The translations under genes were made by a program, and so were the position numbers. Under the pieces are notes generated by a model. That model ran no database searches. It was not told where the DNA came from and was given only the letters and a program-made list of their open reading frames with translations. Of a stretch of 64,000 bases of DNA, positions 44,028-59,719 are shown piece by piece. This stretch comes from Microbacterium testaceum StLB037 (GTDB taxonomy: Bacteria > Actinomycetota > Actinomycetes > Actinomycetales > Microbacteriaceae). Location: NCBI RefSeq assembly GCF_000202635.1, contig NC_015125.1:2728001-2792000 (forward strand). Reading direction: 5' to 3'. Position 1 is the first letter of the stretch, and each line of letters begins with the position of its first letter.

Positions 44028-44783
44028 CTACCGCGGGCGCACCCGCAGGTGCGTCACGCCGCCGTCGACCTCGAGCGCGGTGCCGGTCGTCGATCCGGCG
44101 AGCGGACTCGCGAGGTACAGGATCGCGTGCGCGACCTCGTCGGGCGTGACCATGCGACCCGTCGCCTGGCGGGCGTCGAGGGCGGCCCGCTCGGCGACGG
44201 GGTCGGGGAAGTTCTGCAGCATGCGCTCCACGAACGGCGTCGACACGGTACCCGGGCTCACGCAGTTCACCCGCACGCCCTCGCGCACGTGGTCGGTCGC
44301 CATCGCGTAGGTGAGCGAGAGGATCGCGCCCTTGGATGCGTTGTACACGGCGCGCTGCGGCAGACCGTTCAGCGCCCCGATCGAGCACACGTTGACGATC
44401 GACGCGTGCTCCGAGCGCTTCAGGTACGGCAGGGCCGCGGCGCAGGCGCGCGCGGTGCCGCGCACGTTGATGTTCAGCACGCGGTCCCAGTCGGCCTCGG
44501 TCGCCTCCTCGACCGTTCCCACGCAGCTCACGCCCGCGCTGTTGACCAGCACGTCCACGCCGCCGAAGCGTTCCGCCACGGCCGCCATCGCGGCATCCAC
44601 CGATTCCCGGTCGGTCACGTCGGCGGCGAATCCGGTCAGTCCCTCATCCAGACCCTCGGCGACGAGATCGAGTACCGCGACCCGCGCCCCCCGCGCGGCG
44701 AAGGCTCTCGCGGTCGCGAGGCCGATGCCCGAGGCTCCGCCGGTCACGACGACGGACAGTCCGTCGAACTCCCCGGCGCTCAT
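44028..44783 (-). CDS. SDR, probable 2-keto-3-deoxy-L-fuconate dehydrogenase
   Basis: A 251-residue SDR with TGGASGIGLATARAFAARG, LVNSAGVSCVG, the active site VCSIGALNGLPQRAVYNASKG and VSPGTVSTPFVERML. It is the last gene of a six-gene minus-strand operon and overlaps the FAH-hydrolase gene by 4 bases. In oxidative L-fucose pathways an SDR turns 2-keto-3-deoxy-L-fuconate into the 2,4-diketo acid, which a hydrolase of the FAH family cleaves. The overlap with such a hydrolase supports that role, but substrate identity is inferred. Confidence 0.85.
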   Translation of the reverse strand: MSAGEFDGLSVVVTGGASGIGLATARAFAARGARVAVLDLVAEGLDEGLTGFAADVTDRESVDAAMAAVAERFGGVDVLVNSAGVSCVGTVEEATEADWDRVLNINVRGTARACAAALPYLKRSEHASIVNVCSIGALNGLPQRAVYNASKGAILSLTYAMATDHVREGVRVNCVSPGTVSTPFVERMLQNFPDPVAERAALDARQATGRMVTPDEVAHAILYLASPLAGSTTGTALEVDGGVTHLRVRPR

Positions 44784-45631
44784 GCCTGCACCAGCGTCTG
44801 ACGGGCGCGACCGAGGCCGTCGATCTCGAGCTCGACGACGTCGCCGGCTCGGAGGTAGGGGGTGTCGGGAAGCCCGAGGGCCACTCCCGCCGGGGTGCCG
44901 GTGTTCACGAGATCACCCGGTCGCAGCACCATGAACTGCGACAGGTACCAGACGACGTACGCGACGGAGAAGATCTGCGACGCGGTCGAGCCGTTCTGCC
45001 GCTCGACGTCGTTCACCGAGAGGCGCAGACCGAGAGCCTGCGGGTCGCTGACATCCGACGCGGGCACGAGGACCGGCCCGAGCGGGTTGAAGGTCTCGCA
45101 GCTCTTGCCCTTGTCCCACTGTCCGCCGCGTTCGAGCTGGAACTCGCGCTCGGACACGTCGTGCGAGACCACGTACCCGGCGACGTGGGCGAGTGCCTCC
45201 TCGGGGGAGGAGAGGTAACGCGCGGTCGTGCCGATCACGACCCCGAGCTCGACCTCCCAGTCCGTCTTCGTCGATCCGCGCGGAATGAGAACGTCGTCGA
45301 AGGGCCCGACGATCGTCGAGGGGTCCTTCATGAAGACGACCGGCTCGGCCGGGACCGCGGCCCCCGTCTCGGCGGCGTGGTCGTGGTAGTTCAGCCCGAT
45401 GCACACGATCTTGCCCGGGACGGCGATCGGAGCGCCGATGCGGAGGGTGTCGGCATCCGGGAGCGGTGTCAGGTCGCCACGGTCGGCCGCGGCGCGAGCG
45501 CGAGCGAGACCGTCCGCGGCGAGGAACGCCCCGTCGATGTCGGCGGTCAGCGGGCGCAGATCGTAGACGGCACCGTCGTGGCGGAGGACGGGGATCTCGG
45601 CGCCGGGATCACCGAGTCGAGCGAAGGTCAT
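44780..45631 (-). CDS. Fumarylacetoacetate hydrolase-family protein, probable 2,4-diketo-3-deoxy-L-fuconate hydrolase
   Basis: A 283-residue metal-dependent C-C hydrolase. The FAH core has IVCIGLNYHDHAAETG, EPVVFMKDPSTIVGP, the metal-binding DWEVELGVVIG, and the C-terminal NTGTPAGVALG. The GGQWDKGKSCETFNPLGPVL segment is typical of the subgroup acting on 2,4-diketo-3-deoxy-sugar acids, releasing pyruvate and lactate. AAGGAG precedes the ATG. There is a 36-base gap from the kinase gene upstream and a 4-base overlap with the SDR downstream. Confidence 0.87.
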   Translation of the reverse strand: MTFARLGDPGAEIPVLRHDGAVYDLRPLTADIDGAFLAADGLARARAAADRGDLTPLPDADTLRIGAPIAVPGKIVCIGLNYHDHAAETGAAVPAEPVVFMKDPSTIVGPFDDVLIPRGSTKTDWEVELGVVIGTTARYLSSPEEALAHVAGYVVSHDVSEREFQLERGGQWDKGKSCETFNPLGPVLVPASDVSDPQALGLRLSVNDVERQNGSTASQIFSVAYVVWYLSQFMVLRPGDLVNTGTPAGVALGLPDTPYLRAGDVVELEIDGLGRARQTLVQA

Positions 45632-45667: not shown

Positions 45668-46609
45668 TCAGCGGGTCACGGGATCGCCGGATGCGGCGCG
45701 GTCGAGTTCGGATCGACGGATGCCGCCCTGCCAGTCGCCGGGGTGAAGGCAGGCGTACGCGCCGGCCAGAGTCGCCGTGCGCAGGCGGGTTACGGCGTCG
45801 CTGTCGGCCAAGCGCTCGGCGACGTATCCGGCGGCGAAAGCGTCTCCGGCGCCGACGGTGTCGACGGGGGTGATGGGGACCGCGGCCACGCGGTGCAACT
45901 CGCCGTCGATGAGCGCGACGGCGCCGTCGCCGCCCAGGGTGACGATGGCTTCGGTCGGGCCCGCCGCAGCGAGAGCGCGCGCGAGGTCGTCCGGCGCGGT
46001 GTGGGCGTGCAGCATCCGCGCCTCGTCATCGCTGGCGAACACGATGTCGGCGCGGGCGATCACGTGCGCGTAGGCGGCGACCGCCTCGGTGCTTCCCCAG
46101 AGTCGGCTGCGGTGATTGACCGCGAAGGACACGAGGGCGCCCACCTCCCGCGCGCGCTCCACCGCGACGAGCACCGCGTCGCGCGCCGAGTCCGACAGGG
46201 CGAGCGTCACGCCGGTCACGTGCAGGATGTCGCCGGCGGCGAGGGGCAGGTCGTCGAGGTCGGCGGCGTCGAGGCGGCTCCCCGCGCTCCCGCGGCGGTA
46301 GTAGTCGACGGTCGTCGCCCCCGCGCGCGGGGTCGACTTGAGCATGAGACCGGTGGGGGCTCCCGCGTCGATGCGGGCGCGCACGTCGACGCCCTCCGAC
46401 CGCAGGTCGCCGACCACTCGGCGTCCCAGCGCGTCGTCGCCGACGCGGCCCAGCCAGGTGACGGGGACGCCGAGGCGGGCCAGACCGATGGCGGTGTTGC
46501 CCTCGGCGCCGCCGGTCGCGACGCGCGCCTGCGACTGGTGCTCCCAGCCGCCGACGCCGTCGCCGAGGACCAGCCCCATGCTCTCGCCGAAGGTGACGAC
46601 GCGGCTCAT
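45668..46609 (-). CDS. kdgK: PfkB-family sugar kinase, probable 2-keto-3-deoxygluconate kinase
   Basis: A 313-residue ribokinase-fold kinase. The N-terminal signature is GGAEGNTAIGLARLGVPVTWLGRVGDD and the C-terminal ATP and catalytic motif is DTVGAGDAFAAGYV, with the catalytic Asp intact. FGESMGLVLGD at the start and the coupling to KDPG aldolase support KDG as substrate, giving KDPG. Its ATG overlaps the aldolase stop by 4 bases. Other 2-keto-3-deoxy acids or ribokinase-like substrates are possible. Confidence 0.87.
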   Translation of the reverse strand: MSRVVTFGESMGLVLGDGVGGWEHQSQARVATGGAEGNTAIGLARLGVPVTWLGRVGDDALGRRVVGDLRSEGVDVRARIDAGAPTGLMLKSTPRAGATTVDYYRRGSAGSRLDAADLDDLPLAAGDILHVTGVTLALSDSARDAVLVAVERAREVGALVSFAVNHRSRLWGSTEAVAAYAHVIARADIVFASDDEARMLHAHTAPDDLARALAAAGPTEAIVTLGGDGAVALIDGELHRVAAVPITPVDTVGAGDAFAAGYVAERLADSDAVTRLRTATLAGAYACLHPGDWQGGIRRSELDRAASGDPVTR

Positions 46610-47259
46610 CGGGCGGACCGCGCGTCGTCGCGGATACGGGCGCACGCGGCGGCCGCGGTGGTGATCGTGTCGAAGTCGCCGCGGGCGATCGCGTCGCGCG
46701 GCACCATCCAGCTGCCGCTGGCGGCGAGCACCCACGGGCGACGGAGGTAGTCGCCCAGGCTGGTCGGATCGACACCGCCGCTGGGGATGAATCGCATGTC
46801 GGCGAACGGCCCGTGCAGGGCGTCGAGGTAGCCCGCACCTCCGAGGTGGCCGGCGGGGAAGATCTTCACGTCGGCGAAGCCGTCCGCACGGGCCCGCTGC
46901 ACCTCGGTGGGGGTCGCGACGCCCGGAACGACCGCGACGCCGCCGGAGCGCAGCCGATCGGCGACCGCGGGGTCGTACCCCGGCGTGACGGCGAAGGTCG
47001 CGCCCGCGTCGATCGCGGCATCCGCCTGTTCCACCGTCAGGACCGTGCCCGCACCCGCGAGGAATCCCTCGACGTCCGCGGCCGCGGCGATCGCGGCGAG
47101 ACCGGCGGGGGTGCGGAGGGTGAACTCGGCACAGCCGATGCCCCCGTCACGGAGGGCGAGGGCCAGGCCGCGCGCGCGGTCGGCGTCGTCGAGCACCACG
47201 ACCGGGACGATACCGACGGTGCCGATGCGTTCGGTGAGCGAGGACGATGAGCCGCTCAT
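46606..47259 (-). CDS. eda: KDPG/KHG aldolase
   Basis: A 217-residue class I aldolase that splits 2-keto-3-deoxy-6-phosphogluconate into pyruvate and glyceraldehyde 3-phosphate. The catalytic Glu is in CAEFTLRTPAG, the Schiff-base Lys in DVKIFPAGHLGG, and the phosphate site in FIPSGGVDP. It is coupled by 4-base overlaps to the SDR before it and the KDG kinase after it, which gives a complete lower Entner-Doudoroff branch within one operon. Confidence 0.92.
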   Translation of the reverse strand: MSGSSSSLTERIGTVGIVPVVVLDDADRARGLALALRDGGIGCAEFTLRTPAGLAAIAAAADVEGFLAGAGTVLTVEQADAAIDAGATFAVTPGYDPAVADRLRSGGVAVVPGVATPTEVQRARADGFADVKIFPAGHLGGAGYLDALHGPFADMRFIPSGGVDPTSLGDYLRRPWVLAASGSWMVPRDAIARGDFDTITTAAAACARIRDDARSAR

Positions 47260-48014
47260 CGCCCGAGCCACCCCCCGTCGACCGGGAGCGTGATGCCCGA
47301 CACATAGTCGGAGGCGCGGGAGGCGAGGAACACGGTCGCCCCGGCGAGATCGGATGCCTCGCCCCACCGCCCCGCGGGGATGCGGTCGAGGATCGCGGTC
47401 GAGCGCGCTGCGTCGGCGCGGAGCGCCTCGGTGTTGTCTGTCGCGATGTAGCCCGGCGCGATCGCGTTGACGGTGACGCCCTTCGACGCCCACTCGTTGG
47501 CGAGGGCCTTGGTGAGGCCGGCGATGCCGGACTTGGCCGCGGTGTACCCCGGGACGTTGATGCCGCCCTGGAAGCTCAGCAGCGAGGCGGTGAAGATGAT
47601 CTTGCCCCGTCCTCGCTCGAGCATCTGCTGCGCGACGGCCTGCGTGAGTCGGAATTGACTGCTCAGGTTGATCTGCAGCACGCGGTCCCACGCGTCGAGC
47701 GGGTGCTCCGCCGCCGGCGCGCGCTCGATGGTGCCGGCGTTGTTGACGAGGATGTCGACGTGGCGGCCAGACAGCTCGGCGCCCAGCGCGTCGACGGCCG
47801 TCGGGTCGCTGAAGTCGCACGCGATGCCGGTGAAGGAGCGTCCGGCGGCGGTCACGGCGCGCTCGATCTCGCTGCCCGACGTCGACTGCGAGGCGCTGAC
47901 CCCGATGATGTCGGCACCCGCCTCGGCGAGACCGAGCGCCATCGCGAAGCCGATCCCGCGTCGCGCGCCGGTGACGACGGCCGTCGTGCCCTCGAGGGAG
48001 AAGAGCCCGCTCAT
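47256..48014 (-). CDS. kduD: KduD-like SDR (2-keto-3-deoxygluconate 5-dehydrogenase type)
   Basis: A 252-residue SDR. It opens FSLEGTTAVVTGARRGIGFAM, with MALGLAEAGADIIGVSASQ, NNAGTIERAPA, the active site FTASLLSFQGGINVPGYTAAK, and the end SDYVSGITLPVDGGWLGR, all in the KduD style. KduD interconverts 5-keto-4-deoxyuronate-derived and KDG intermediates, but relatives act as gluconate 5-dehydrogenases. Overlaps on both sides (4 bases each) tie it to the zinc alcohol dehydrogenase and the aldolase. Confidence 0.85.
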   Translation of the reverse strand: MSGLFSLEGTTAVVTGARRGIGFAMALGLAEAGADIIGVSASQSTSGSEIERAVTAAGRSFTGIACDFSDPTAVDALGAELSGRHVDILVNNAGTIERAPAAEHPLDAWDRVLQINLSSQFRLTQAVAQQMLERGRGKIIFTASLLSFQGGINVPGYTAAKSGIAGLTKALANEWASKGVTVNAIAPGYIATDNTEALRADAARSTAILDRIPAGRWGEASDLAGATVFLASRASDYVSGITLPVDGGWLGR

Positions 48015-49033
48015 GCCTGGCCTCCCACGTCGACGAGGATCTTCATCGCACGACCCGCCTCGAGGTCGGCGAAGGCCTCGGCGGTGGCGCTCAGGGGCAC
48101 GATCCGGGTGATGAGCAGGTCCGTGGGGATCACGCCGTCGGCGACGAGTTCGACGGCGGTCTCGAAGTCGGGACGCTGGTAGACGCGTGCGCCGAGCAGG
48201 CGCAGTTCGCGCCAGAACATGCGCTGGAGGTCGACCTCGCGCGGGGTGGGGTGGATCGCCACGACGACGATCGTGCCGCGCACCTTCGCCAGCCCGGTCG
48301 CTCCGCGGACGGCGGCCGCGGCGCCCGAGACCTCGAACACGACGTCGGCTCCGGCGCCCCGGGTCCATTCCTCGACGACCGCGACCTGGTCGCGCTCGCG
48401 GGGGTCGAGGGTCGCGAAGCCGAGCTCCTCGATCTGCGCGCGGCGCTTCTCGTCGAGCTCGATCACGAGCACGTCGGCGCCGGTGTGCCGGGCGACGCAG
48501 GCGATGAGGACGCCGATGGGGCCGCCGCCGATGACGACGGCCTTGTCGCCGGGGGCGAGCTCGGCGCGCCGCACGTCGTGGACGGCGACCGCGACCGGTT
48601 CGACGAGCGCGGCGTGGTCCAGCGCGATGCCCTCGGGCAGACGGACGAGCGTCTCGGCGGGCACGTTCCACAGGCCCTGCAGCGAGCCGGGGGAGTCGAT
48701 GCCGATGAAGTCGAGGTTCTGGCAGATGTGCTGGTTTCCGGCCAGGCAGGCGGGGCACGTGCCGTCCCACGCGAGCGGCATCACCGTGACGCCGTTGCCG
48801 ACGTCCCATCCCTCGACGCCCTCGCCGAGCGAGGCGATCGTGCCGCTCATCTCGTGTCCGAAGACGAGCGGGGTCTGCACCCGCGCGTCCATCGACCCGT
48901 GCAGGATGTGCAGGTCCGTCCCGCAGAGGCCCGTGTAGGCCACGCGGATCTGGACCTGACCGGGGCCGGGAGGGGTGGCATCCGCTTCTCGGACGTCGAT
49001 CGTGTGCTCGCCCACGTAGGCCGCTGTCAGCAT
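48011..49033 (-). CDS. Zinc-dependent alcohol dehydrogenase (sugar or sugar-acid type)
   Basis: A 340-residue medium-chain dehydrogenase. The catalytic zinc site is Cys in TGLCGTDLHILHG and His-Glu in FGHEMSGT, with structural-zinc Cys residues in CPACLAGNQHIC. The Rossmann motif is VIGGGPIGVLIA. It resembles threonine, sorbitol and galactitol-phosphate dehydrogenases, so a polyol or aldonate substrate is likely. It is the first gene of the six-gene operon, with AGGAGAG at the ribosome site. A CATC-N-GATG-type site lies 14 bases upstream of the start. Confidence 0.9.
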   Translation of the reverse strand: MLTAAYVGEHTIDVREADATPPGPGQVQIRVAYTGLCGTDLHILHGSMDARVQTPLVFGHEMSGTIASLGEGVEGWDVGNGVTVMPLAWDGTCPACLAGNQHICQNLDFIGIDSPGSLQGLWNVPAETLVRLPEGIALDHAALVEPVAVAVHDVRRAELAPGDKAVVIGGGPIGVLIACVARHTGADVLVIELDEKRRAQIEELGFATLDPRERDQVAVVEEWTRGAGADVVFEVSGAAAAVRGATGLAKVRGTIVVVAIHPTPREVDLQRMFWRELRLLGARVYQRPDFETAVELVADGVIPTDLLITRIVPLSATAEAFADLEAGRAMKILVDVGGQA

Positions 49034-49060: not shown

Positions 49061-49131
49061 TCCGAACAATCATGCCCCACAAATCGTCATATGTCTCTGT
49101 TGCACGCGAAACCGCCGAGCGATACGGTGAA

Positions 49132-49144
49132 CAAACGATTGACC
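49132..49144. promoter_or_regulatory. Putative LacI-type operator before the CoA-transferase operon
   Basis: CAAACGATTGACC, 49 bases upstream of the CoA-transferase start. It closely resembles CAAACGTTTGATC (57236) and ATAACGTTTGACC (57265) before the importer gene. A palindromic CGTTTG core is typical for LacI-family operators. Confidence 0.5.
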
Positions 49145-49192
49145 ACGATGTCTCACGACGTCCCCTCCTCGACGCGAAGGCGCGCGAATCCC

Positions 49193-50380
49193 ATGGTGCA
49201 ACAGATCATCAGACCCTTGGACGGGCTCCTCGTCCTCGACTTCAGTCAGTTCCTGGCCGGCCCCGTTGCGGCGCTCCGCCTCGCCGATCTCGGCGCGCGG
49301 GTCATCAAGATCGAGCGCCCCGGTGTCGGCGACATCGGACGGACCCTCGCGTTCGCGGGTCGCTCGATCGACGGCGACACGGTGTCGTTCCACGCGATGA
49401 ACCGCAACAAGGAGTCCGTCGCCGCCGATCTGAAGAACCCCGACGACCTCGAAGACGTCCGTCGGCTCGTCGCCCGCGCCGACGTGGTGATCCAGAACTT
49501 CCGCCCTGGGGTGATGGAGCGGATCGGCCTCGACTACGCCTCGGTGAAAGAGCTCAACCCCTCGATCGTCTACGCCAGCGCGAGCGGCTACGGCGATGAG
49601 GGTCCGTGGCGCGACCGCCCCGGTCAAGATCTGCTGGCCCAGGCGATCTCGGGACTGCCGTGGCTGAGCGGCTCCCGCGAGGACGGACCCGTGCCCCTCG
49701 GCCTCTCGATCGCCGACCACCTGCTGAGCTGTCACCTCGCTCAGGGGGTCACGGCGCTCCTGGTCCGCCGGTTCCGCACGGGGCAGGGGGGACTCGTGCA
49801 GTCGAGCCTGCTCGAAGCCGTCCTCGACCTGCAGTTCGAGCTCCTCAGCACGAAGCTCAACGACGCCACGATCCAGGTGCGGCGCCACGGCGAGCACTCC
49901 GCGCACGCCTTCCTCGCCGCCCCCTACGGCACCTACCCGACCCTCGACGGGTATCTCGCCCTCGCGATGAACCCGATCCCCGAACTCGGTCGCCTCCTCG
50001 GACTCCCCGAGCTCCAGGCCCTCGCGGACCCGCGCGACGCGTGGGACCGTCAGGAAGAGATCGAAGCACTCCTCGCGGCGCGCTTCGCCACAGGGTCCAC
50101 GGCGCACTGGCTCGGCATCCTGGATGCCGCGGACGTGTGGTGCGCGCCGGTGCTGACGCTCGACGAGCTGCTGGCCTCGGACGGGTTCGCCGCGATCGAC
50201 ATGACGCAGGAGGTCGAGCGGCGAGGGACGAGGATCGCCACCACCCGGAGCCCGCTCCGGATCGACGGGCAGGTGCTGCGCAGCGAGAAGGCGGCGCCCC
50301 TGCTCGGGGAGGACGGCGCGCGCATCCGCGCCGAGTTCCTGTCGCGCGATGTCCGGGCGGAAGACGGGAGTCTCGCATGA
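49193..50380 (+). CDS. Class III (CaiB/BaiF) CoA-transferase
   Basis: A 395-residue enzyme that moves CoA between carboxylic acids. It opens PLDGLLVLDFSQFLAGPVAA as in the family, with ADLGARVIKIERP, LNPSIVYASASGYGDEGPW, and catalytic Asp146 in RPGQDLLAQAISGL. The late AADVWCAPVLTLDELLAS is also conserved. The frame is open upstream to 49091, but 49193 fits the family start. An ATG at 49148 is possible. The stop overlaps the SBP-like gene by 4 bases. Its acid substrate is unknown. The context points to a sugar-derived acid. Confidence 0.9.
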   Translation: MVQQIIRPLDGLLVLDFSQFLAGPVAALRLADLGARVIKIERPGVGDIGRTLAFAGRSIDGDTVSFHAMNRNKESVAADLKNPDDLEDVRRLVARADVVIQNFRPGVMERIGLDYASVKELNPSIVYASASGYGDEGPWRDRPGQDLLAQAISGLPWLSGSREDGPVPLGLSIADHLLSCHLAQGVTALLVRRFRTGQGGLVQSSLLEAVLDLQFELLSTKLNDATIQVRRHGEHSAHAFLAAPYGTYPTLDGYLALAMNPIPELGRLLGLPELQALADPRDAWDRQEEIEALLAARFATGSTAHWLGILDAADVWCAPVLTLDELLASDGFAAIDMTQEVERRGTRIATTRSPLRIDGQVLRSEKAAPLLGEDGARIRAEFLSRDVRAEDGSLA

Positions 50381-51510
50381 GCGTCGTCCTGCGCGGCATC
50401 ACCTGGGAGCACGCGCGTGGGTACGGCAGCGTCGCGGCGTCGGCCCGGGCATACCGGACGGTCGCTCCCGACGTCGAGGTGAGATGGGATCAGCGCTCGC
50501 TGCAGTCCTTCGCCGACCAGCCGCTCGAAGAGCTCGTGCGCGACTACGACCTGCTCGTCATCGACCACCCGCACATCCCCTTCGCCGCGGAGGAGGGCCT
50601 CTTCGCGCGTCTCGACGGCAGCGGCCACGATGACGAGCTCGCGGTCCTCGCCGCGCAGTCGGTCGGGTCCTCGCACGCGTCGTACGCGCACGCCGGAGGG
50701 CAATGGGCCCTCGCGACGGATGCGGCCGCCCAGGTCGCGGCGTTCCGCCCCGACCTGCTTCCCGAGCCGCCGCGCGATTGGCCGAGCGTGCTCTCCCTCG
50801 CGGCCGAGGGGAGGGTGCTGTGGCCCTACAAGCCGGTCGACGCCTTCTCGAGTCTCATCACGGTCGCCGCCGGCGACGGCGAGGAGGCGATGCGGGCTCC
50901 CGGCGTGTTCCTGTCCGCGGACGCGCTCGGCGGGGCGATGGCCACCCTCCGCGCTCTCGCTCGGGCCGTGCCGGCGGGATGCGCGACGTGGAACCCCATC
51001 CAGACCGCCGACGCGCTCAGCGAGGGCACGCGGTACTGCTACGCCCCGTTGCTGTTCGGCTATTCGAACTACGCGCGCGCGGGCTTCCGCGCGCACCGTC
51101 TGCGGTACGTCGACATCCCGGCATCCCGTCGAGGGGTGCGCGGGTCGCTGTTGGGCGGTGCGGGCGTCGCCGTCTCGTCGCGGTCCCTCCACACGGCCGA
51201 GGCGATCGCGCACGCCTTCTGGCTCGCCTCGGCCGAGGTGCAGGCCGGTGTCTACTACGACGCCGGCGGACAGCCGGGCAACGCGGTCGCGTGGGACGAC
51301 GACCGCACGAACGCCGACAGCCTCGACTTCTTCCGGGGAACCCGCGCGACGCTCGAAGGGGCGTACGTCCGGCCGCGCTGGCCCCGCTACATCGACCTGC
51401 AGAACGCCCTCTCGCCCCTCGTGACCGCAGCCCTGCGCGGCGAGCTGACCGACGACGAGCTACGCGCGCGCCTGGACGCCGGCGTCCGCGCCGCCGAGGA
51501 GGACCGATGA
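50377..51510 (+). CDS. Solute-binding-protein-like protein without a signal peptide
   Basis: A 377-residue protein resembling family 1 extracellular solute-binding proteins ([20 protein letters not shown] at the start, then a bilobal alpha/beta pattern and [17 protein letters not shown]). It has no signal peptide, no lipobox Cys and no hydrophobic leader, and its start is fixed by an ATGA overlap with the CoA-transferase stop. It is also coupled to the MaoC gene. A cytoplasmic protein with this fold may be an enzyme or a substrate carrier for its neighbours. Function unknown. Confidence 0.82.
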
Positions 51511-51974
51511 GAACGATGGATCGCTGGTTCGACGACTACGCCGTCGGAGAGACGCGCGAGACGGTGGGGCGCACCATCACCGAGGGCGACATCGTCCTGC
51601 ACGCCGGCCAGACCGGCGACTTCTTCCCCCACCACATGGATGCCGAGTGGATGGCGACCCAACCCGCCGGGCAGCGCATCGCCCACGGCACGCTGATCCT
51701 CTCGGTCGCGGTCGGCATGACCGCCGGCGACATCAACCCGCAGTCGATGAGCTACGGGTACGACCGGATCCGCTTCATCCGCCCCGTGTTCATCGGCGAC
51801 ACGATCCGCGTGACGGCCGAGATCACCGCCCTGCGCCCGCACGCCAGGACTCCGGATGCCACCGGCTACATCGACGAGCTCGTCACGGTGCGGAACCAGC
51901 ACGGTGACACGGTCATGGTGCTCACGCACGTGTACCTCGTCAACCGCCGCCCCGCGGGGGAGCGCGACGTGTGA
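51507..51974 (+). CDS. MaoC-family (R)-specific hydratase/dehydratase
   Basis: A 155-residue hot-dog-fold protein. The hydratase motif is [13 protein letters not shown], with the catalytic Asp and His in the family's spacing. Then come [15 protein letters not shown] and [18 protein letters not shown]. MaoC proteins add water to, or remove it from, enoyl- or hydroxyacyl-CoA. This fits an acyl-CoA made by the CoA-transferase two genes upstream. The ATG overlaps the SBP-like stop by 4 bases. An in-frame ATG at 51516 is possible. Confidence 0.9.
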
Positions 51975-52011: not shown

Positions 52012-53031
52012 ATGGTCAGGCTGAGCGACGTCGCCGCGCGTGCCGGGGTATCGGTCTCGGCCGTCTCCCGGGTCCTCAGCGATGCGCCGAACACCCGGGT
52101 GAGCGAGACGACCCGCCGGCGGATCCACGAGGCGGCGGCCGAACTCGGCTATCGTCCGAACTTCGCGGCCCGCGCACTGAAGTCCGCGCGCACGCACGTC
52201 GTCGGTCTCGTCGTGCCCGATGTGACGAACGCCGTCTTCACCGAGCTGTTGCACGGCGTCGAAGACGAGGCGTACCGCCTCGGTTACGTCGTGCTGCTGG
52301 CCCGGGCGGATGGTCTGCCCGAGGGCGTCGACATCATCGGACGACTGATCGGCGAGGGGCGCGTCGACGGGCTGATCGTGCAGACCGGCGACGCGATGCC
52401 CGACAGCGACATCGCCCGACTGATCGCGGGCCGCCTGCCCGTCGTCTTCGTCAACTCGATCCATCCCGAGGGGGCGGGGTCGGTCGTCCTCGATGACGAG
52501 CGCGGTGCGGGCATCGCCGTCGATCATCTCGTGGGTCTCGGTCACCGCCGTATCGCGCTCGTCGGAGGCCTCGCCTCGTCCGACACGGCGCGCCGCCGCG
52601 AGATCGGATTCCGCGCCGCGATGGAGCGGGCGGGCCTCGAGGTCGGCGACCACGATGTCACGCGCCTCGGGTACGAACCCGAACGGGGTGCGGAGGCCTT
52701 GACCCGCCTGTGGACGGGGGAGGGACGGCCGAGCGCCGTCGTCGTCGCGAACGTCAACGCCGCGTACGGTGTGCTCACCGCAGCGCACCGCCTGGGGGTG
52801 AGTGTGCCCGAGGATCTGTCCGTGGTGGCGATCCACGACGCATGGACGGCCGAACATTCGTGGCCGCCCCTCACGACGGTCCGGATGCCGCTGCGCGAGC
52901 TGGGCGCGACGGCGCTTCGGGCGATGGTCGAGAGCCTGGCGTCGGGGGCCCGCGCGGATGCCGTGGTGACCGACCCCGAACCGGTCCTCGTCGTGCGGGC
53001 ATCGACGGCGGAGCCTCGCGTAAAGAACTGA
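52012..53031 (+). CDS. LacI-family transcriptional regulator
   Basis: A 339-residue repressor-type regulator. The HTH and hinge are residues 1-57 (LSDVAARAGVSVSAVSRVLS, LGYRPNFAARALKS). The periplasmic-binding-like sensor domain follows (VVGLVVPDVTNAVFTELLHG, DHLVGLGHRRIALVGG, LSVVAIHDAWTAE). ATG 52012 lies 6 bases after TACACT, so a separate leaderless transcript is likely in addition to read-through from MaoC (37-base gap). Probable targets are CAAACG-type sites at 49132 and 57236-57277. Confidence 0.93.
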   Translation: MVRLSDVAARAGVSVSAVSRVLSDAPNTRVSETTRRRIHEAAAELGYRPNFAARALKSARTHVVGLVVPDVTNAVFTELLHGVEDEAYRLGYVVLLARADGLPEGVDIIGRLIGEGRVDGLIVQTGDAMPDSDIARLIAGRLPVVFVNSIHPEGAGSVVLDDERGAGIAVDHLVGLGHRRIALVGGLASSDTARRREIGFRAAMERAGLEVGDHDVTRLGYEPERGAEALTRLWTGEGRPSAVVVANVNAAYGVLTAAHRLGVSVPEDLSVVAIHDAWTAEHSWPPLTTVRMPLRELGATALRAMVESLASGARADAVVTDPEPVLVVRASTAEPRVKN

Positions 53032-53130: not shown

Positions 53131-54108
53131 ATGCGCACTCGTGCACTGCGGCACGGAACACCGCTCACCGAGATCGGCCTCGGCGCGGCCCAACTCGGGA
53201 ACCTGTACCGCGAGACGACCGAGGCGGAGGTCGACGAGTCGGTCGACACCGCGTGGGACGGGGGCATCCGATACTTCGACACCGCCCCGCACTACGGGCT
53301 CGGTCTCTCGGAGCGACGCCTCGGCGCGCGCCTCGCGCATCGCCCGCGCGAGGAGTTCGTCATCTCGACCAAGGTCGGACGGGTGCTCGAGCCGAGCCCC
53401 GAGACCGCGCATCTGCGCGACGACGACGGGTTCGACGTCCCGCGCGACGTCGTCCGGCGGTGGGACTTCAGCCGCGACGGCATCCTGCGCTCGGTCGAGG
53501 ACTCCCTCCGGCGCACGGGGCTCGACCGCTTCGACATCCTCTACCTGCACGATCCCGACGACCATTTCGCTCAGGCGTCGACCGAGGGCATCGGCGCGCT
53601 CATCGAGCTGCGCGAGCAGGGAGTGGTCTCGGCCGTCGGCGCCGGGATGAACGCGGCGGACCCGCTCGCCGAGCTCATCCGACGCTCCGACGTCGACGTC
53701 GTGATGTGCGCCGGTCGGTACACGCTCCTCGACGACTCCGCCGCCGCCGAACTGCTCCCGCTCGCCCAGGAGCGCGGCGTGGGCGTGGTGGCCGCCGGGG
53801 TGTTCAACTCCGGACTCCTCAGCGCGCCGCGCCCGCCGGCGGACGCCACCTACGACTACCAACCCGCGCCGCCCGAGCTGATCGCGCGGGCGAACGCGAT
53901 CGCCGACATCAGCGAGCGCCACGGGGTGACCCTGCCCGACGTCGCGGTGGCCTTCGCCCTGCGGCATCCCGCGGTCGTCTCGGTCGTCCTCGGCGCGCGA
54001 GGACGCCGCCAGGTCGCGCAGAACCTCGATCGCGCCGCCACGCCCATTCCCGACGACCTCTGGCGCGACCTCGCCGAGGCAGACCTCATCTCCAAGGAAG
54101 ACGCATGA
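53131..54108 (+). CDS. Aldo/keto reductase, probable L-fucose (sugar 1-) dehydrogenase
   Basis: A 325-residue AKR. The tetrad residues are Asp and Tyr in [15 protein letters not shown], Lys in [12 protein letters not shown], and His in [10 protein letters not shown]. This subgroup ([14 protein letters not shown] at the start) includes sugar 1-dehydrogenases such as D-threo-aldose and L-fucose dehydrogenase, which make the lactone. AAAAGGAGG is a strong ribosome site. The stop overlaps the L-fuconate dehydratase ATG by 4 bases, the main support for L-fucose as substrate. Confidence 0.9.
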
Positions 54109-55406
54109 CCACGATCACCGCCGTCACCGCGCACGACGTGCGCTTTCCGACCTCGCTCAGCATGGACGGGTCGGATGCCATGAACAAGGACGGCGACTAC
54201 TCCGCCGCCTACGTGGTGGTGCACACCGACGACCCGGAGCTGAAGGGCTACGGCTTCACGTTCACCATCGGCCGCGGCAACGACCTGTGCGTGGAGGCGG
54301 CGCGTCAGCGTGGACTGCCCCTCGTCGGACGCTCGGTCGAAGACGCGGTCGCAGACCTCGGGGGTGTCTACCGCGATCTCGCCTCCGACTCCCAGCTGCG
54401 CTGGCTCGGCCCCGAGAAAGGCGTCGTCCACCTCGGGATGGCGGCGGTCATGAACGCGATGTGGGATCTCGCCGCGCGGGTCGCTCAGAAGCCGCTCTGG
54501 CGCCTGCTCGCCGACATGACGCCGGAGCAGCTCGTCGATGTCGCCGACATGCGCTACCTGTCGGACGCCCTCACGCGCGACGAGGCCATCGGCATCCTCA
54601 CCGAACTCGCCCCCACGCGCGCCGCGCGCATCGCCGAGCTCGAGGGCCGAGGCGGCTACCCCTGCTACACCACGAGTGCCGGCTGGCTCGGCTACAGCGA
54701 CGACAAGCTGCGGCGTCTGCTGCAGGAGGCCGTCGACGAGGGGTACCGCCACGTCAAGCTCAAGGTCGGGGCGAGCCTCGACGATGACATCCGGCGCCTG
54801 CGCATCGCGCGAGAGGTGATCGGGTGGGATGCCAACCTGATGATCGATGCGAACCAGGTCTGGGACGTCCCCGAGGCGATCGAGTGGATGAGCCACCTCG
54901 CCGAGTTCAAGCCGCTGTGGATCGAAGAGCCCACGAGCCCCGACGACGTGCTGGGGCACGCCGCGGTGCGCAAGGCCGTCGCCCCGATCGGCGTCGCGAC
55001 CGGCGAGCACGGGATGAACCGCGTGCTGTTCAAGCAGATGTTCCAGGCCGAGGCGATCGACTTCTGTCAGCTCGACTCCGCCCGCCTCGCGAGCGTGAAC
55101 GAGATCATCGCGGTCTACCTGATGGCCGCGAAGTTCGGGGTGCCGGTCTGCCCGCACGCCGGCGGGGTCGGTCTGTGCGAGCTCGTGCAGCACCTGTCGA
55201 TCTTCGACTTCGTGTGCGTCTCCGGGACGCTCGAGAACCGTGTGACCGAGTTCGTCGACCACCTGCACGAGCACTTCGTCGACCCGTGCATCGTCGAGAA
55301 CGGCGCGTACGTGCTTCCCTCGTTGCCCGGCTACAGCGCCGAGATGCACGACGCCTCGGTCGCCGAGTACACCTTCCCCGAGGGAACGTACTGGGCGAGC
55401 CGGTGA
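54105..55406 (+). CDS. L-fuconate dehydratase (enolase superfamily)
   Basis: Removes water from L-fuconate to give 2-keto-3-deoxy-L-fuconate. It has 433 residues, the usual length of this subgroup (human ENOSF1 type). The N-terminal capping domain has [15 protein letters not shown] and [20 protein letters not shown]. The barrel has the catalytic KxK-type VKLKVG, metal-binding LMIDANQVW and [10 protein letters not shown], then ATGEHG and CPHAGGVG with the general acid/base His. The [11 protein letters not shown] loop is characteristic of FucD. Second gene of the AKR operon. It converges with the GntR gene, 3 bases between stops. Confidence 0.93.
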
Positions 55407-55409
55407 CGA

Positions 55410-56147
55410 CTACCGGGCTTCGGGGTCTTCGTCCGCGTGGGCGGCGCTGAACTCCTCGACCCCCAGGAGATGGACCTGCATGCGGATGCGAGCCCGGGCC
55501 GGATCCCGACGGACGAGTTCGTCGAGGATCGCCCGGTGCTCGGCCTGCGTCTCACGCACCGAGCCGCGGTGCGTGATGGCGCGCCAGAGTCGCGCGCGGA
55601 ACGTGCGGCCCACGAGCGTGTCGATGATGGCGGCCAGCGCGGGATTGCCGCTCGCGCGGGCGATGATGCGGTGGAACTCGGTGTCGGCATCGATGAACCC
55701 CTCGAGGTCCATGTCGGGCTCGTTCTCGAGGATCGTGTCGACGACCCCGAGCGTGCGGTCGAGCTGCTGCAGCTCCTCCTCGGTGAGGCGGGTGGCGGCG
55801 AGCGAGACGGTCTCGGCCTCGAGCATGCGTCGCACCGCCAGCAGGTCGGCCGCGTGGGCGGGCTGCTGGAGGTCGGCGAGGAAGCCGAGCGGGCTCAGGA
55901 GGGTGCGGGGGTCGAGCGCGGTCACGTACGTGCCGTCGCCCTGTCGCGTCTCGAGGACGCCGAGCGTCGCAAGCGCACGGACGCCCTCTCGCAGCGATCC
56001 CCGCGAGACACCGAGCTGTGCCGCCAGGTCTTTCTCGATCGGCAGGCGCGACCCGGGACCGAGCTCTCCGCGCGTCAGCATCGTCTTGATGCCGTCGATG
56101 ACCACGTCCGTCTGGGAGCGCGGTGCGGAGACGAAGTCTTCGGTCAT
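55410..56147 (-). CDS. GntR-family regulator, FCD subfamily
   Basis: A 245-residue regulator. The winged HTH (about 12-75) contains LGPGSRLPIEKDLAAQLGVSR and SLREGVRALATLGVLETRQG. The all-helical FCD domain (about 95-235) has metal or ligand residues in DADTEFHRIIARASGN and ETQAEHRAILDEL. FCD regulators usually bind organic or sugar acids. It is divergent from the lactonase gene. CATC-N-GATG-like sites occur in that region and before three other island operons, so it is the probable local regulator. Confidence 0.93.
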   Translation of the reverse strand: MTEDFVSAPRSQTDVVIDGIKTMLTRGELGPGSRLPIEKDLAAQLGVSRGSLREGVRALATLGVLETRQGDGTYVTALDPRTLLSPLGFLADLQQPAHAADLLAVRRMLEAETVSLAATRLTEEELQQLDRTLGVVDTILENEPDMDLEGFIDADTEFHRIIARASGNPALAAIIDTLVGRTFRARLWRAITHRGSVRETQAEHRAILDELVRRDPARARIRMQVHLLGVEEFSAAHADEDPEAR

Positions 56148-56175
56148 GGCGGTCAGTCTACGGACTGGAAGGATT

Positions 56176-56238
56176 CATCGGAGGAATTCCCCCCGTTTCT
56201 GCCGAGAGAACCCCCGTCGGTGGCGAAAACCTCCGATG
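56176..56238. promoter_or_regulatory. Two mirrored FCD-regulator sites in the GntR-lactonase promoter region
   Basis: CATC-G-GAGG (56176-56184) and its exact reverse complement CCTC-C-GATG (56230-56238), 29 and 33 bases from the respective start codons of the divergent genes. One site serves each direction. Confidence 0.6.
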
Positions 56239-56270
56239 ATGATTGTCCGAACCCGCCCGAGGAGGCACGC

Positions 56271-57143
56271 ATGACCTTTCCCGTGATCGACGCTCACCAG
56301 CACGTGTGGGACCCGACCCGCGCGGAGTACGACTGGCTCACGCCGGATGCCGCCCCGATCGACGGGGTGATGACCTTCGCCGACGTCGCCCCCGAGCTTC
56401 GCGCCGCCGGCGTCGACTTCACGGTGCAGGTGCAGTCGGCCGACAATCCCGAGGACACGCAGCTGATGCGCGAGTCCGCAGCGGCCCACGCGGAGGTGGC
56501 CGGCATCGTCGGGTACGCCCCGCTCGAGGATCCCGAGCGGACGGAGCGCACGCTCGCGTCGTGGGAGGGCGACCCGCTCATGGTGGGGGTGCGGACTCTC
56601 ATCCACAACCAGCCCGACCCCGATTGGCTGCTGCGCCCGGAGGTCGACGCCTCGCTCGGACTCCTGGAAGAGCGTGGCCTCCCGTTCGACGTGGTCGCGG
56701 TGCTGCCGCGCCATGTCGAGATCATCCCGCTCGTCGCCGCTCGCCACCCCCGCCTGCGGATGGTGATCGACCACCTCGCGAAGCCTCCGATCGGTGTGAG
56801 CGACGGGGCGGAGTGGGGTCGTCTGATGAGTGCCGCCGCGGACAACGAGAACGTGTACGCCAAGGTGAGCGGGCTGTACTCGGCGACGGACGACGGCTCG
56901 GCCTGGACGACCGACCTCATCCGACCGTTCGTGGACCGTGCTCTCGAGATGTTCGGGCCGCAGCGGTTGATGTACGGCGGGGACTGGCCGATCTCGGTGC
57001 TTTCCGGGGGATACACCCGCGTGTGGAACGGTCTGCGCCCCCTCTTCGACGCGCTCGACCCCGACGCGCGCGAGAGGGTCCTGGGCCGCACGGCAGCCGA
57101 GTTCTACCGCTTGGACGCGGGCCGCCTGGGCCTTGGCGGCTGA
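56271..57143 (+). CDS. Amidohydrolase-family L-fuconolactonase
   Basis: A 290-residue TIM-barrel hydrolase (COG3618 type) that opens sugar lactones. The metal motif HxH is in VIDAHQHVWDP. Then come VDFTVQVQSADNPEDTQLM, MVIDHLAKPPI with its His, and RLMYGGDWPISVLSGGY with the catalytic Asp. It should hydrolyse L-fucono-lactone made by the AKR to L-fuconate for FucD. GAGGAGG is an excellent ribosome site. It is transcribed alone and is divergent from the GntR gene. Confidence 0.92.
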   Translation: MTFPVIDAHQHVWDPTRAEYDWLTPDAAPIDGVMTFADVAPELRAAGVDFTVQVQSADNPEDTQLMRESAAAHAEVAGIVGYAPLEDPERTERTLASWEGDPLMVGVRTLIHNQPDPDWLLRPEVDASLGLLEERGLPFDVVAVLPRHVEIIPLVAARHPRLRMVIDHLAKPPIGVSDGAEWGRLMSAAADNENVYAKVSGLYSATDDGSAWTTDLIRPFVDRALEMFGPQRLMYGGDWPISVLSGGYTRVWNGLRPLFDALDPDARERVLGRTAAEFYRLDAGRLGLGG

Positions 57144-57182
57144 ACTCGATCACAATCCCAAAAATCCCTGGAAACAACAATT

Positions 57183-57229
57183 CATCTGATGTATCGTCGG
57201 ACCTAAGCCTGAGGCCGCGCGATCAGATC
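57183..57229. promoter_or_regulatory. FCD-regulator sites before the importer operon
   Basis: A perfect CATC-T-GATG (57183-57191) within AATTCATCTGATGTAT, and a second GATC-A-GATC (57221-57229), both upstream of the solute-binding protein gene. Confidence 0.6.
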
Positions 57230-57235
57230 AGAACG

Positions 57236-57277
57236 CAAACGTTTGATCAAATGCGAGTCGCGGGATAACGTTTGACC
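57236..57277. promoter_or_regulatory. Two LacI-type operator-like sites before the importer operon
   Basis: CAAACGTTTGATC (57236-57248), which contains the perfect palindrome CAAACGTTTG, and ATAACGTTTGACC (57265-57277), 29 bases apart. They resemble the site before the CoA-transferase operon. Confidence 0.55.
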
Positions 57278-57343
57278 AATTCGCCCGGATCGTCACAGCT
57301 CCCGATAACCGGGCGGAGCGGCAGCTCACACAAAGGAGTGTCA

Positions 57344-58660
57344 ATGAAGACCACACGCATCCTTGCGGCCGGTGCGGCGCTCGCCGTCGCGGCGCTCGCG
57401 CTCGCCGGGTGTTCCGGCGACGCCACGGGCGGGACGGCGACGCAGGCGCAGACCGATTCGGGCGGCAAGATCACCGTCTGGGTCGACCCGCCCCGCGTCC
57501 CCGCGGCAGAGGCGTTCCAGAAGGCGTACCCCGACATCCCCATCGACGTCGTGCAGATCGACGGCACGGTCGGCGGCAAGACGGTGAAGCAGTCGTTCGC
57601 CAACTTCGACGCGGCCGGCTCGGGCTGGCCCGACGCGATCTTCTTCCCGTCGAACGACGACATCGCCTGGGCGACCAACTCGACCAGCAACTACGCGGCC
57701 GACCTGACCGACATCATGGCCGACACCATCAAGGGCTACGACCCGGCCGTGCTGTCGTTCTGCGACATCGACGGCAAGATCCGGTGCCTGCGCAACGACG
57801 CGGCGCCCGACGTGTTCTGGTACAACAAGGCCTTCTTCGACCAGAACGGCTACACCCTGCCCACCACGTGGGAAGAGTACGGCGACCTCGCGGTCAAGAT
57901 CGCCGCCGAGCACCCGGGCAAGATCAGCGGTTTCCTGGGCGACGCGTACGCGATCAACCGGTACCTGCAGGCGTCGGGCTGCCCGACGAACGACCGCGTC
58001 TCCGAGAGCGAAGCGCACATCGACCTCTCCGACGCGACCTGCACCCGGGCGACCGAGCTGCTCGACAAGATGTACAAGGGCAAGGCGCTCAGCACGCAGG
58101 GCATCTTCGACGGTGACGCGGCGACCGAGGGCCAGAACCTCGTGATGAGCCCCGGAGCGGCGTGGTGGGGCAACTACCTCTTCCGCGACACCTGGAAGAT
58201 CCCGGCCGGTCAGATGACCGCGGCGGCTCCGCTGCCCTGGAAGGGCGACTCGAAGCCGTCGACCGGTAACGAGGGCGGTGGCCTCTGGGGTGCCTCGTCG
58301 CACATCACGGGCAAGGAGCTCGAGAACACGCTGACGTTCATGAAGTTCGTCGCGACCGACCCGCGTTGGCAGGTCGACCTCAGCACCGGTCTTCCCGGCT
58401 ACGGACCCGTCCAGGACCAGTGGCTCGCGAAGCTCGAGGCGGACAAGTACTTCGCCGACGTGCCCACGACGCAGGCGGCGTTCAAGACCGCCCTGGGCGA
58501 AGTGCAGCCGTACTCGTACATGCTCTACGACACCGGCTCGGTGTGGACCGAGACGGTCAGCCCGACCCTCATCTCGGGCGGCACCGTGCCCGACGCCATC
58601 ACCAAGTTCGGCGACGAACTCGTGAACCAGGCCAAGTCGGTCGGCTACACCGTCCAGTGA
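57344..58660 (+). CDS. ABC sugar transporter solute-binding lipoprotein (family 1)
   Basis: A 438-residue lipoprotein that captures the sugar outside the membrane. The signal ends in LALAGC (Cys23). The mature protein has ITVWVDPPRVPAAEAFQKAY, a bilobal layout, DVFWYNKAFFDQNGYTLPTTWEEY and WWGNYLFRDTW, typical of MalE-like family 1 proteins. CAAAGGAG is the ribosome site. It is followed after 81 bases by two permease genes. By operon content the ligand is probably L-fucose or a fucoside. Confidence 0.93.
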   Translation: MKTTRILAAGAALAVAALALAGCSGDATGGTATQAQTDSGGKITVWVDPPRVPAAEAFQKAYPDIPIDVVQIDGTVGGKTVKQSFANFDAAGSGWPDAIFFPSNDDIAWATNSTSNYAADLTDIMADTIKGYDPAVLSFCDIDGKIRCLRNDAAPDVFWYNKAFFDQNGYTLPTTWEEYGDLAVKIAAEHPGKISGFLGDAYAINRYLQASGCPTNDRVSESEAHIDLSDATCTRATELLDKMYKGKALSTQGIFDGDAATEGQNLVMSPGAAWWGNYLFRDTWKIPAGQMTAAAPLPWKGDSKPSTGNEGGGLWGASSHITGKELENTLTFMKFVATDPRWQVDLSTGLPGYGPVQDQWLAKLEADKYFADVPTTQAAFKTALGEVQPYSYMLYDTGSVWTETVSPTLISGGTVPDAITKFGDELVNQAKSVGYTVQ

Positions 58661-58741
58661 GTCCGCGGCCAGGGCGCCGGTGAGAACCGGTGCCCTGGCC
58701 CCCTGTTTTCCCCCGGAAGTCGATTCCCCAGGAAAGAAGTC

Positions 58742-59719
58742 ATGACCGTCACCGCCACAGAAACGCTCACCACAGCCGAGCGACGCGGGGCCGTGCCCCG
58801 CCGTTCCTCGGGGCGTCGGCGCGCTCCCCACCGTGTCGAGGCCCGCGGGGCCTGGATCCTCATGGCGCCGTACGCGGCCCTGTTCCTCGTCGCCGCCGCC
58901 ATCCCCATCTGCTACGCCTTCTGGATCTCGCTCCAGAAGGCACCGACCATGGTCAATCCGAAATCCGGGTTCGGCGGTCTCGACGCCTACATCACCGCCG
59001 TCACCGACTTCCGGTTCTTCGACACGTTCATCAACATCTTCACGGTCATGATCGTGTGGCTGCCGCTGATGATCGTGGGCATCGTCGGTCTCGCGCTGCT
59101 GGTGCACGCGAGCCCCGGGCGCTTCGGCGGCGCGATGCGCTTCGTGTACTTCCTGCCCGGCGCCCTCGCCGGCATCGCCAACTTCGTGCTGTGGGTGTAC
59201 CTGCTCAACCCCTCCATCTCCCCGATCGCGTTCCTCTGGCAGGGCATGGGGGTCGACAACCTCAAAGAGGTCACCACCACCGAGAACCTGCCCTGGATCC
59301 TCACCGCCATGCTGTTCTTCCAGGGCGTCGGAACCTGGATCGTCATCGTCAACGGGGGCCTGAACGGCATCGCCGAGGAGGTCTTCGAGGCGGCCAAGAT
59401 CGACGGGGCAAACTCGTGGCAGCTCGCGTGGAACATCAAGCTCCCGCTCATCCGCCCCTGGATCGGCTACGCCGCGCTGATGAACCTCGCCTACGGCTTC
59501 CAGCTGTTCCTCGAGCCCTACCTGCTGCGGCAGATCTCGTCGGGATCGGTGGATGCCGAGTGGGCACCGACGCAGCTCGGGTACGCCTTCGCCTTCACCA
59601 ACCGCAACTTCCCGGCCGCCGCGGCGATGTCGATCATCCTGCTGGTGATCACTCTCGCGATCGGCATGTTCATCGTGTTCAAGAGCGGCCTGTTCGGCGA
59701 AGAGGAGAAGTCCCAGTGA
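58742..59719 (+). CDS. ABC sugar transporter permease, MalF/UgpA type
   Basis: A 325-residue permease with six helices after a cytoplasmic basic N-terminus. The first helix begins ILMAPYAALFLVAAAIPICYA. The EAA coupling loop is EEVFEAAKIDGANSWQLAWN followed by KLPLIRP, intact. GAAAG precedes the ATG. The GTGA overlap with the next gene indicates coupling with the second permease. No ATPase gene is in the operon, so a shared MsmK/MsiK-like ATPase elsewhere is expected. Confidence 0.92.
   Translation: MTVTATETLTTAERRGAVPRRSSGRRRAPHRVEARGAWILMAPYAALFLVAAAIPICYAFWISLQKAPTMVNPKSGFGGLDAYITAVTDFRFFDTFINIFTVMIVWLPLMIVGIVGLALLVHASPGRFGGAMRFVYFLPGALAGIANFVLWVYLLNPSISPIAFLWQGMGVDNLKEVTTTENLPWILTAMLFFQGVGTWIVIVNGGLNGIAEEVFEAAKIDGANSWQLAWNIKLPLIRPWIGYAALMNLAYGFQLFLEPYLLRQISSGSVDAEWAPTQLGYAFAFTNRNFPAAAAMSIILLVITLAIGMFIVFKSGLFGEEEKSQ

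Follow-up and report, generated by a model that had tools for sequence, protein, structure and literature searches.

A Solute-Binding-Fold Protein without an Export Signal Is Encoded with a Class III CoA-Transferase in Sugar-Acid Gene Clusters and Might Serve as Its Cytoplasmic Partner

What might a protein that resembles the sugar-binding components of ATP-binding cassette (ABC) importers, yet carries no export signal, be doing between the genes for a coenzyme A (CoA)-transferase and a MaoC-type hydratase? This question is raised by a locus in Microbacterium testaceum StLB037, whose genome is a single contig of 3.98 Mb (NC_015125.1). The window, meaning the whole stretch of DNA analyzed here, comprises 64,000 nucleotides of this contig (positions 2,728,001 to 2,792,000), and the features concerned are collected in Table 1. 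The evidence leaves evenly balanced the proposition that the solute-binding protein (SBP)-like protein is a cytoplasmic substrate-binding partner of the class III (CaiB-type) CoA-transferase encoded directly before it.

The three genes are coupled at both junctions by overlaps of four bases (ATGA), as the initial annotation had described, and these overlaps can be read directly in the sequence at 50377-50380 (CaiB/SBP-like) and 51507-51510 (SBP-like/MaoC). Its description of both flanking enzymes as intact is likewise borne out. The CaiB protein matches PF02515 with 325.5 bits (cut-off 23.3) and retains a catalytic aspartate in the motif PGQDLL, with Asp146 counted from the ATG at 49193. Its closest solved structures are formyl-CoA transferase and succinate-hydroxymethylglutarate CoA-transferase, and it falls below the cut-off of all seven NCBIfam models matched (e.g., mesaconate, 175.2 of 700 bits; glutarate, 202.7 of 750). 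Only two CaiB genes are present in the genome. The MaoC protein matches PF01575 with 74.7 bits (cut-off 27) and PDB 4ffu with 168.7 bits, and it has an intact GDFFPHH motif, presumably the MaoC active site, with Asp38 and His42/43. As a separate observation on the CaiB family, relatives of about 780 amino acids (P0125-P0244) are CaiB-CaiB tandems in 10 of 10 scanned, and are named for Hymenobacter, Planctomycetota, Pelagicoccus, and others.

The middle gene had been assigned the fold of sugar-binding SBPs with neither a signal peptide nor a lipobox, and this assignment holds up. The protein matches PF13416 (SBP_bac_8) with 37.2 bits, a weak score yet one above the cut-off of 27, and belongs to the type II periplasmic-binding-protein (PBP-II) fold of sugar SBPs; the 50 VIA rows listed for it are importer-type SBPs. 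Within its first 50 residues, the mean hydropathy over 10 residues reaches at most 1.13, and no signal-like stretch is present. A PF13416 search of the same genome yielded 27 places, and at each of the 26 others a lipobox lies in the upstream frame and the hydropathy around the start is 1.86-2.82, compared with 1.13 here. The direct neighbors of the gene are CaiB and MaoC and not permease genes, and the importer-type genes of the cluster have an SBP of their own, although an importer encoded elsewhere might use the protein.

The start of this protein had been placed by the ATGA overlap, and it can be fixed independently of that overlap because a stop closes the frame 3-26 codons before the conserved start in 20 of 34 GTDB loci (L009, L013-L018, L020-L025, L027-L032, and L034). 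The remaining 14 are not judgeable by upstream stops, with longer open frames in L001-L008, L010-L012, L019, and L026 and the end of a contig in L033. Among the query and the best 120 of at least 1428 homologs (121 proteins, hereafter family 1), 119 start 5-10 residues before the family motif, one at 21 residues, and one inside the motif, and no lipobox pattern occurs in the first 45 residues of any of them. An upstream-encoded signal peptide in the homologs, the outcome that would have undone the proposal, was carried by none of those listed. An importer SBP with a missed upstream signal was considered and rejected on the strength of the upstream stops, the 119 of 121 starts, and the control within the genome itself. 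Judged from these features, a cytoplasmic location is probable.

This family also stands apart from importer SBPs in sequence. Its profile matched 85 open reading frames (ORFs), one per locus in 85 loci and all with at least 276 bits (some of these loci are overlapping copies of one place, and the 27 loci of the host genome, L086-L112, were left out), whereas three SBPs of a second family described below and one importer SBP score 9.7-16.0 bits. An alignment of 29 SBP-like sequences has 51 invariant columns, and the invariant polar residues, placed by sequence and secondary structure, include H12, R14, R40, D47, D63, H66, S95, S99, Y103, D115, N231, Y232, Q299, N302, and W306.

How constant is the association of this gene with its two partners? 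Its conserved co-occurrence with both had been named as a check on the proposal; that with CaiB is conserved across phyla, and MaoC is not obligatory. CaiB is found in 31 and MaoC in 32 of the 34 GTDB loci, within the stretch fetched for each; both are missing in L013 and L014, and CaiB also in L021, a contig of 3.6 kb. CaiB directly adjoins the SBP gene, at 141 bases or less, in 17 of these loci; in another 14, MaoC and a lactonase-like gene come between the two, and CaiB is 1.3-2.4 kb downstream. A fuconolactonase-like gene is present in 26 of the 34. In a sample of 295 Microbacterium genomes, the SBP gene was found in at least 31, a lower bound with up to six candidates scored per genome, and at 33 places. 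CaiB lies within about 1.5 kb at all 30 Microbacterium loci (29 and the window's own; in L051 as a fragment at the locus edge), a set that is not independent of the GTDB loci, as some genomes are of the same strains. MaoC lies within 1.5 kb at 14 of these 30 loci and is absent at 16. Two of the three other Microbacterium places (in G351 and G511) have an adjoining CaiB gene as well. Only 3 of 296 genomes sampled across the phylum carry the SBP-like gene, which is therefore sporadic there, and the two outside the genus (L043 and L044) also have an adjoining CaiB.

The reverse test, which starts from CaiB in the 295 genomes, gives a similar picture. Fifteen places hold the closest CaiB clade, with at least 501 bits to P0001 (the next best has 290), and all 15 are paired: 14 have the SBP gene within 1.4 kb, and the fifteenth, at a contig edge, shows the start of the SBP frame (26 bits). 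A second clade, type-b (at least 671 bits), has the SBP gene at 18 of 22 places. The claimed tie of a periplasmic-binding fold without export signal to a CoA-transferase in sugar-acid clusters is supported, with a weaker point in the 4 of 22 type-b CaiB genes that lack such a neighbor.

The pair extends well beyond the actinobacteria. Among annotated plasmids, 145 records hold an SBP homolog, and 90 of these are from Sinorhizobium. In S. meliloti R14, a unit of just CaiB and the SBP gene lies downstream of traA, and pSymB of the laboratory strain 2011 carries an intact pair with the same overlap (CaiB from about 731316, the SBP-like gene from 732458); in the pSymB record of strain 1021 (NC_003078; L036:10845-11915), the CaiB reading frame ends some 30 codons sooner than it does in R14. 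No MaoC gene was found within the 25-kb stretch that holds the S. meliloti pair, and an obligate three-gene unit was rejected on this ground and on that of the 16 Microbacterium loci. In Martelella, Nitratireductor, and Shinella, the pair sits amid genes annotated as L-fuconate dehydratase, L-rhamnose mutarotase, Gfo/Idh/MocA protein, MaoC, and IclR regulator, and in Croceibacterium it is part of a cluster with an alpha-L-fucosidase gene. Persicobacter and Rufibacter carry genes for the SBP-like protein, a CoA transferase, CaiB, a second SBP, a Gfo/Idh/MocA protein, and MaoC together with a RhaT symporter gene, and in Persicobacter an alpha-L-fucosidase gene is also nearby. In both of these Bacteroidota, signal-less SBP genes and CoA-transferase genes are each present twice. 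The 25-kb stretches from the two organisms carry no annotated ABC permease, which makes a transport role for the SBP-like protein hard to reconcile with these clusters.

The type-b clade shows that the hydratase can change while the pair persists. The order of genes in L074 is enolase-superfamily, metallo-beta-lactamase-like, and Gfo/Idh-like (these three by eye), then CaiB, the SBP-like gene, a crotonase (PF00378), and an aldehyde dehydrogenase (PF00171). Pfam gives no match to the type-b SBP at an E value of 0.001, and its tie to the family comes from the profile, with 276-318 bits; one type-b SBP gene used as a megablast query against plasmids found nothing. Since the hydratase is exchangeable between folds, MaoC in some clusters and crotonase in another, what is conserved would seem to be CoA-thioester chemistry and not the MaoC protein.

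Persicobacter, Rufibacter, and Croceibacterium each have a second SBP, which is a member of a separate family of the same broad SBP type that likewise lacks a signal (PF01547/PF13416; 44-54% mutual identity). The best 120 of at least 1933 relatives are 381-397 amino acids long, and those that are named come mostly from sphingomonads. An LRIA-like strand starts within the first six residues in 115 of these 120 listed proteins, the other five begin alike, and no signal peptide is seen at the N termini of those listed; one (P0316) matches the lipobox pattern by chance, though it starts at the family motif. A haloarchaeal member, in Halostagnicola, also shows no signal at its start. Its cluster is annotated with alpha-L-fucosidase, amidohydrolase, mutarotase, two Gfo/Idh/MocA proteins, MaoC, CoA transferase, and an AMP-binding protein, and the gene for the last, of CoA-ligase type (L113:10332-11960), directly precedes the SBP gene. 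The link of this second family to CoA-transferase genes is known from four records.

Table 1. Features of the window around the CaiB/SBP-like/MaoC operon, and SBP genes of the second signal-less family
Feature	Position	Strand	Family or basis
SDR (short-chain dehydrogenase/reductase) oxidoreductase, overlapping the FAH gene	44028..44783	-	PF13561
FAH (fumarylacetoacetate hydrolase)-family hydrolase, resembling 2,4-didehydro-3-deoxy-L-rhamnonate hydrolase	44780..45631	-	NF053535, 303.4 bits, below cut-off 500
PfkB-family sugar kinase	45668..46609	-	PF00294
KDPG/KHG aldolase family	46612..47259	-	PF01081, scanned without first 8 residues
SDR, KduD-like	47256..48014	-	TIGR01832, 335.9 bits, just below cut-off 338.85, scanned without start Met
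Zinc alcohol dehydrogenase, divergent	48011..49033	-	PF08240/PF00107
Predicted LacI-type operator, TGAACAAACGATTGACCA, upstream of CaiB	49128..49145	+	Imperfect palindrome, 6 of 9 positions paired
Class III CoA-transferase (CaiB/BaiF family), catalytic Asp146	49193..50380	+	PF02515
Solute-binding-fold protein without signal, 377 amino acids, proposed cytoplasmic partner of the CoA-transferase	50377..51510	+	PF13416
MaoC-type enoyl-CoA hydratase or dehydratase	51507..51974	+	PF01575
LacI-family regulator, likely acting on the operator at 49128	52012..53031	+	PF00356 and PF13377
Aldo-keto reductase (AKR), candidate L-fucose dehydrogenase (role from context)	53131..54108	+	NCBIfam AKR models, all below cut-off
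Enolase-superfamily sugar-acid dehydratase, candidate L-fuconate dehydratase	54105..55406	+	NF047820 and others, below cut-off
GntR-family regulator	55410..56147	-	NCBIfam GntR models, all below cut-off
Amidohydrolase, L-fucono-1,5-lactonase-like	56271..57143	+	NF052480, 162.2 bits, below cut-off 400
Typical lipoprotein SBP, presumably belonging to an ABC importer	57344..58660	+	Lipobox signal peptide, by eye
Second-family SBP genes of Bacteroidota, a sphingomonad, and a haloarchaeon	L084:13142-14374, L085:13288-14415, L040:5423-6610, L113:12001-13236		

The genes on either side of the operon indicate the kind of substrate that might be involved. The LacI gene follows MaoC after 37 bases, and the part of the cluster on the plus strand beyond it spans 53131-60657, with hydrophobic permease-like ORFs (by eye) downstream of the lipoprotein SBP. 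The candidate dehydratase is 54-57% identical to annotated L-fuconate dehydratases of L038, L039, and L041, over the parts inside those loci. The lactonase, fuconate dehydratase, SDR, and FAH hydrolase family types of the non-phosphorylative L-fucose pathway are all present. For the lactonase, dehydratase, and FAH hydrolase, the equivalog scores fall below the curated cut-offs; "L-fucose-type" is therefore a statement at the level of families and does not assign the sugar. Elsewhere, two MaoC-type genes occur per cluster in L018-L020 and L026-L034, and RraA-like, mutarotase, and Gfo/Idh/MocA genes accompany them in L032.

Expression of the operon is probably controlled through a LacI-type operator. 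The predicted operator is 18 bases long and lies 47 bases before the CaiB start; its presence makes 49193 a more likely start of CaiB than an upstream ATG at 49091. The pattern TGNNCAANCGNTTGNNCA, which was written after the site had been seen, has one match in the window with at most one mismatch, compared with 0.03 expected, and the site was missed by a simple scan for palindromes with at least 7 of 9 positions paired. Better evidence comes from conservation: all 12 of the loci L001-L012 have the pattern before CaiB, and two of them, from Herbiconiux (L007 and L011), have it before the lactonase gene as well. An exact match is lacking in the remaining 22 GTDB loci. Control would likely be exerted by the LacI protein encoded just downstream.

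A mechanism can be proposed in which the SBP-like protein would hold a sugar-derived ligand, such as an L-fucose-type aldonic acid or one of its products, in the cleft where the SBPs of importers bind their sugars. It might then act as a delivery protein that supplies this ligand to CaiB, or as a subunit in a complex with it. CaiB would make a CoA thioester through Asp146, and the hydratase (MaoC here, crotonase in the second clade) would add or remove water on this thioester. That the CoA step falls on an aldonic acid or a 2-keto-3-deoxy acid is a guess. The module would run as an additional branch alongside the non-phosphorylative L-fucose pathway, under LacI control in this organism. The wider proposal, which we hold tentatively and with slightly less than even confidence, is that a previously undescribed CoA-thioester route for L-fucose-type sugar acids exists in bacteria and haloarchaea, in which CaiB enzymes receive their acceptors from dedicated cytoplasmic sugar-binding proteins that were recruited at least twice from the SBPs of ABC importers.

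Several known systems share parts of this arrangement. The importer sugar SBPs TMBP, MalE3, LpqY, and SmoF (PF13416/PF01547) are related to the SBP-like protein, which differs in having no signal or lipobox and in being coupled to CaiB and not to permeases. Tct/Bug-type SBPs adjoin CaiB genes in Burkholderiales, and these are exported with signal peptides and belong to another SBP group. Formyl-CoA, succinate-hydroxymethylglutarate, and succinyl-CoA:mesaconate transferases have in common with the window's CaiB the class III fold family and the catalytic aspartate, and to our knowledge none of them needs an SBP-fold partner. A CoA-transferase followed by a MaoC hydratase is also found in itaconate and mesaconate routes, which add a CitE-like lyase. 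The RipB model NF038241 of the itaconate route gives only 42.4 bits here (cut-off 340), no CitE-type lyase occurs among the neighbors scanned, and the module sits in a sugar-acid cluster. The lactonase, fuconate dehydratase, SDR, and FAH-type families of the non-phosphorylative L-fucose pathway surround the module, several of them in other phyla too. We know of no CoA step in that pathway as described, and the CaiB/SBP/MaoC module would be an addition to it.

The novelty of the system must be worded with care. A periplasmic-binding fold at work as a cytoplasmic enzyme had been presented as new, and this was overstated, as PBP-II-fold enzymes such as prephenate dehydratase, HisG, MqnA, thiaminase I, and Thi5 are known. 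What is new would thus be the partnership with CaiB and the CoA route that it implies, and not the departure of the fold from the periplasm. The SBP fold, CaiB, and MaoC are all familiar families; no account of their pairing in the cytoplasm, or of how widespread it is, was found in the open-access literature consulted. The same literature yielded no CaiB/SBP/MaoC module in fucose breakdown, and none of the terms CaiB, CoA-transferase, MaoC, solute-binding, and Gfo occurs in the main text of PMC10444878.

A number of observations weigh against a partnership of the two proteins, or at least against a strict one. In Dormibacterota (L013 and L014), the SBP-like gene stands with enolase-superfamily and LacI genes, and CaiB and MaoC are absent within about 8 kb; at the third of the other Microbacterium places (G512, L082), the nearest CaiB is 3.5 kb away. 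Besides the four unpaired type-b CaiB genes (L115-L118), all four of the more distantly related CaiB genes that were checked (L119, L121, and two in L122) are without an SBP neighbor. Obligate pairing as an absolute rule was therefore rejected, and the unpaired type-b genes, L082, and the Dormibacterota leave strict subunit status for the SBP-like protein unsupported. Each of the four genomes with an unpaired type-b CaiB carries another SBP-like gene, compared with at least 31 of 295 genomes overall, of fucose type in G307, G380, and G468 and of type-b in G483. This fits a partner acting in trans, and the clustering of fucose-type loci may alone explain it, the other gene lying about 8 kb away in G380 and about 18 kb away in G307. 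Proteins of about 780 amino acids recovered with P0001 joined to P0002 as the query have two CaiB domains each, and no CaiB-SBP fusion was found among the 10 of 120 listed that were checked with Pfam. Against the lack of a signal, one family 1 protein, P0031, has a hydropathy of 2.17 over 11 residues within its first 45, compared with 2.56 for the window's lipoprotein SBP; this stretch lies in its first helix, after the motif. The fucose-type pathway beside the module looks complete without a CoA step, which leaves the need for a further branch unexplained. In favor of a partnership are the identity distances of 65 SBP/CaiB pairs (16 loci, mostly copies of the same place, were omitted beforehand, and four had no CaiB found), which correlate with r = 0.86, the largest of 1000 permutations being 0.11; common descent and joint transfer account for part of this value, and the statistic holds no correction for them.

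Other explanations must accommodate the same evidence. The SBP-like protein might itself be an enzyme (an epimerase, isomerase, lyase, or hydrolase, for instance) that acts on a sugar acid or CoA ester of the same pathway and is not bound to CaiB. The 51 invariant columns, many of them polar, perhaps exceed the needs of pure binding, the genes are found apart in Dormibacterota and in the four type-b clusters, and the PBP-II-fold enzymes named above are precedents. An independent enzyme is nonetheless unlikely, given that the gene is tightly coupled to CaiB and not to other enzymes, that no catalytic motif is recognized in the protein, and that two distinct signal-less SBP families with CoA-transferase genes fit binding better than convergent catalysis. 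It is improbable that the protein is a cytoplasmic sensor or buffer that modulates CaiB, LacI, or the metabolite pool with no direct part in catalysis. Such a role would suit a binding-protein fold, a LacI operator before the operon, and the presence of an SBP-like gene in the genomes with unpaired type-b CaiB, but the neighboring regulators vary by clade (LacI, IclR, or GntR) while the SBP-CaiB pairing stays.

Two further explanations are less likely still. CaiB, the SBP-like protein, and MaoC might share no more than a regulon that serves several compounds found in the same habitat, and have no common reaction sequence, as the operator before the lactonase gene in Herbiconiux and the exchange or absence of MaoC could suggest. 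This is quite improbable in view of the ATGA coupling, the constancy of CaiB in the GTDB and Microbacterium loci, and the recurrence of these partners, next to varying regulators, in Actinomycetota, Pseudomonadota, and Bacteroidota. Hardly credible is an importer SBP that is exported by an unrecognized route, or that is a decayed duplicate of the lipoprotein SBP. Membership in SBP_bac_8 and the presence of that lipoprotein with permease-like ORFs in the same cluster speak for it; it is opposed by the lack of signal or lipobox in the 121 listed members, strong conservation across phyla, the SBP that the cluster already has, the Bacteroidota copies beside a RhaT symporter, and the sequence distance of the family from other SBPs.

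If the SBP-like protein is indeed cytoplasmic, many proteins that are annotated as extracellular sugar-binding proteins would be cytoplasmic metabolic proteins, and the transporter predictions made from them would be wrong. If its partnership with CaiB is real, a substrate-binding component would be added to a well-studied class of CoA-transferases, and a CoA-dependent step would be implied in the breakdown of fucose-type sugars.

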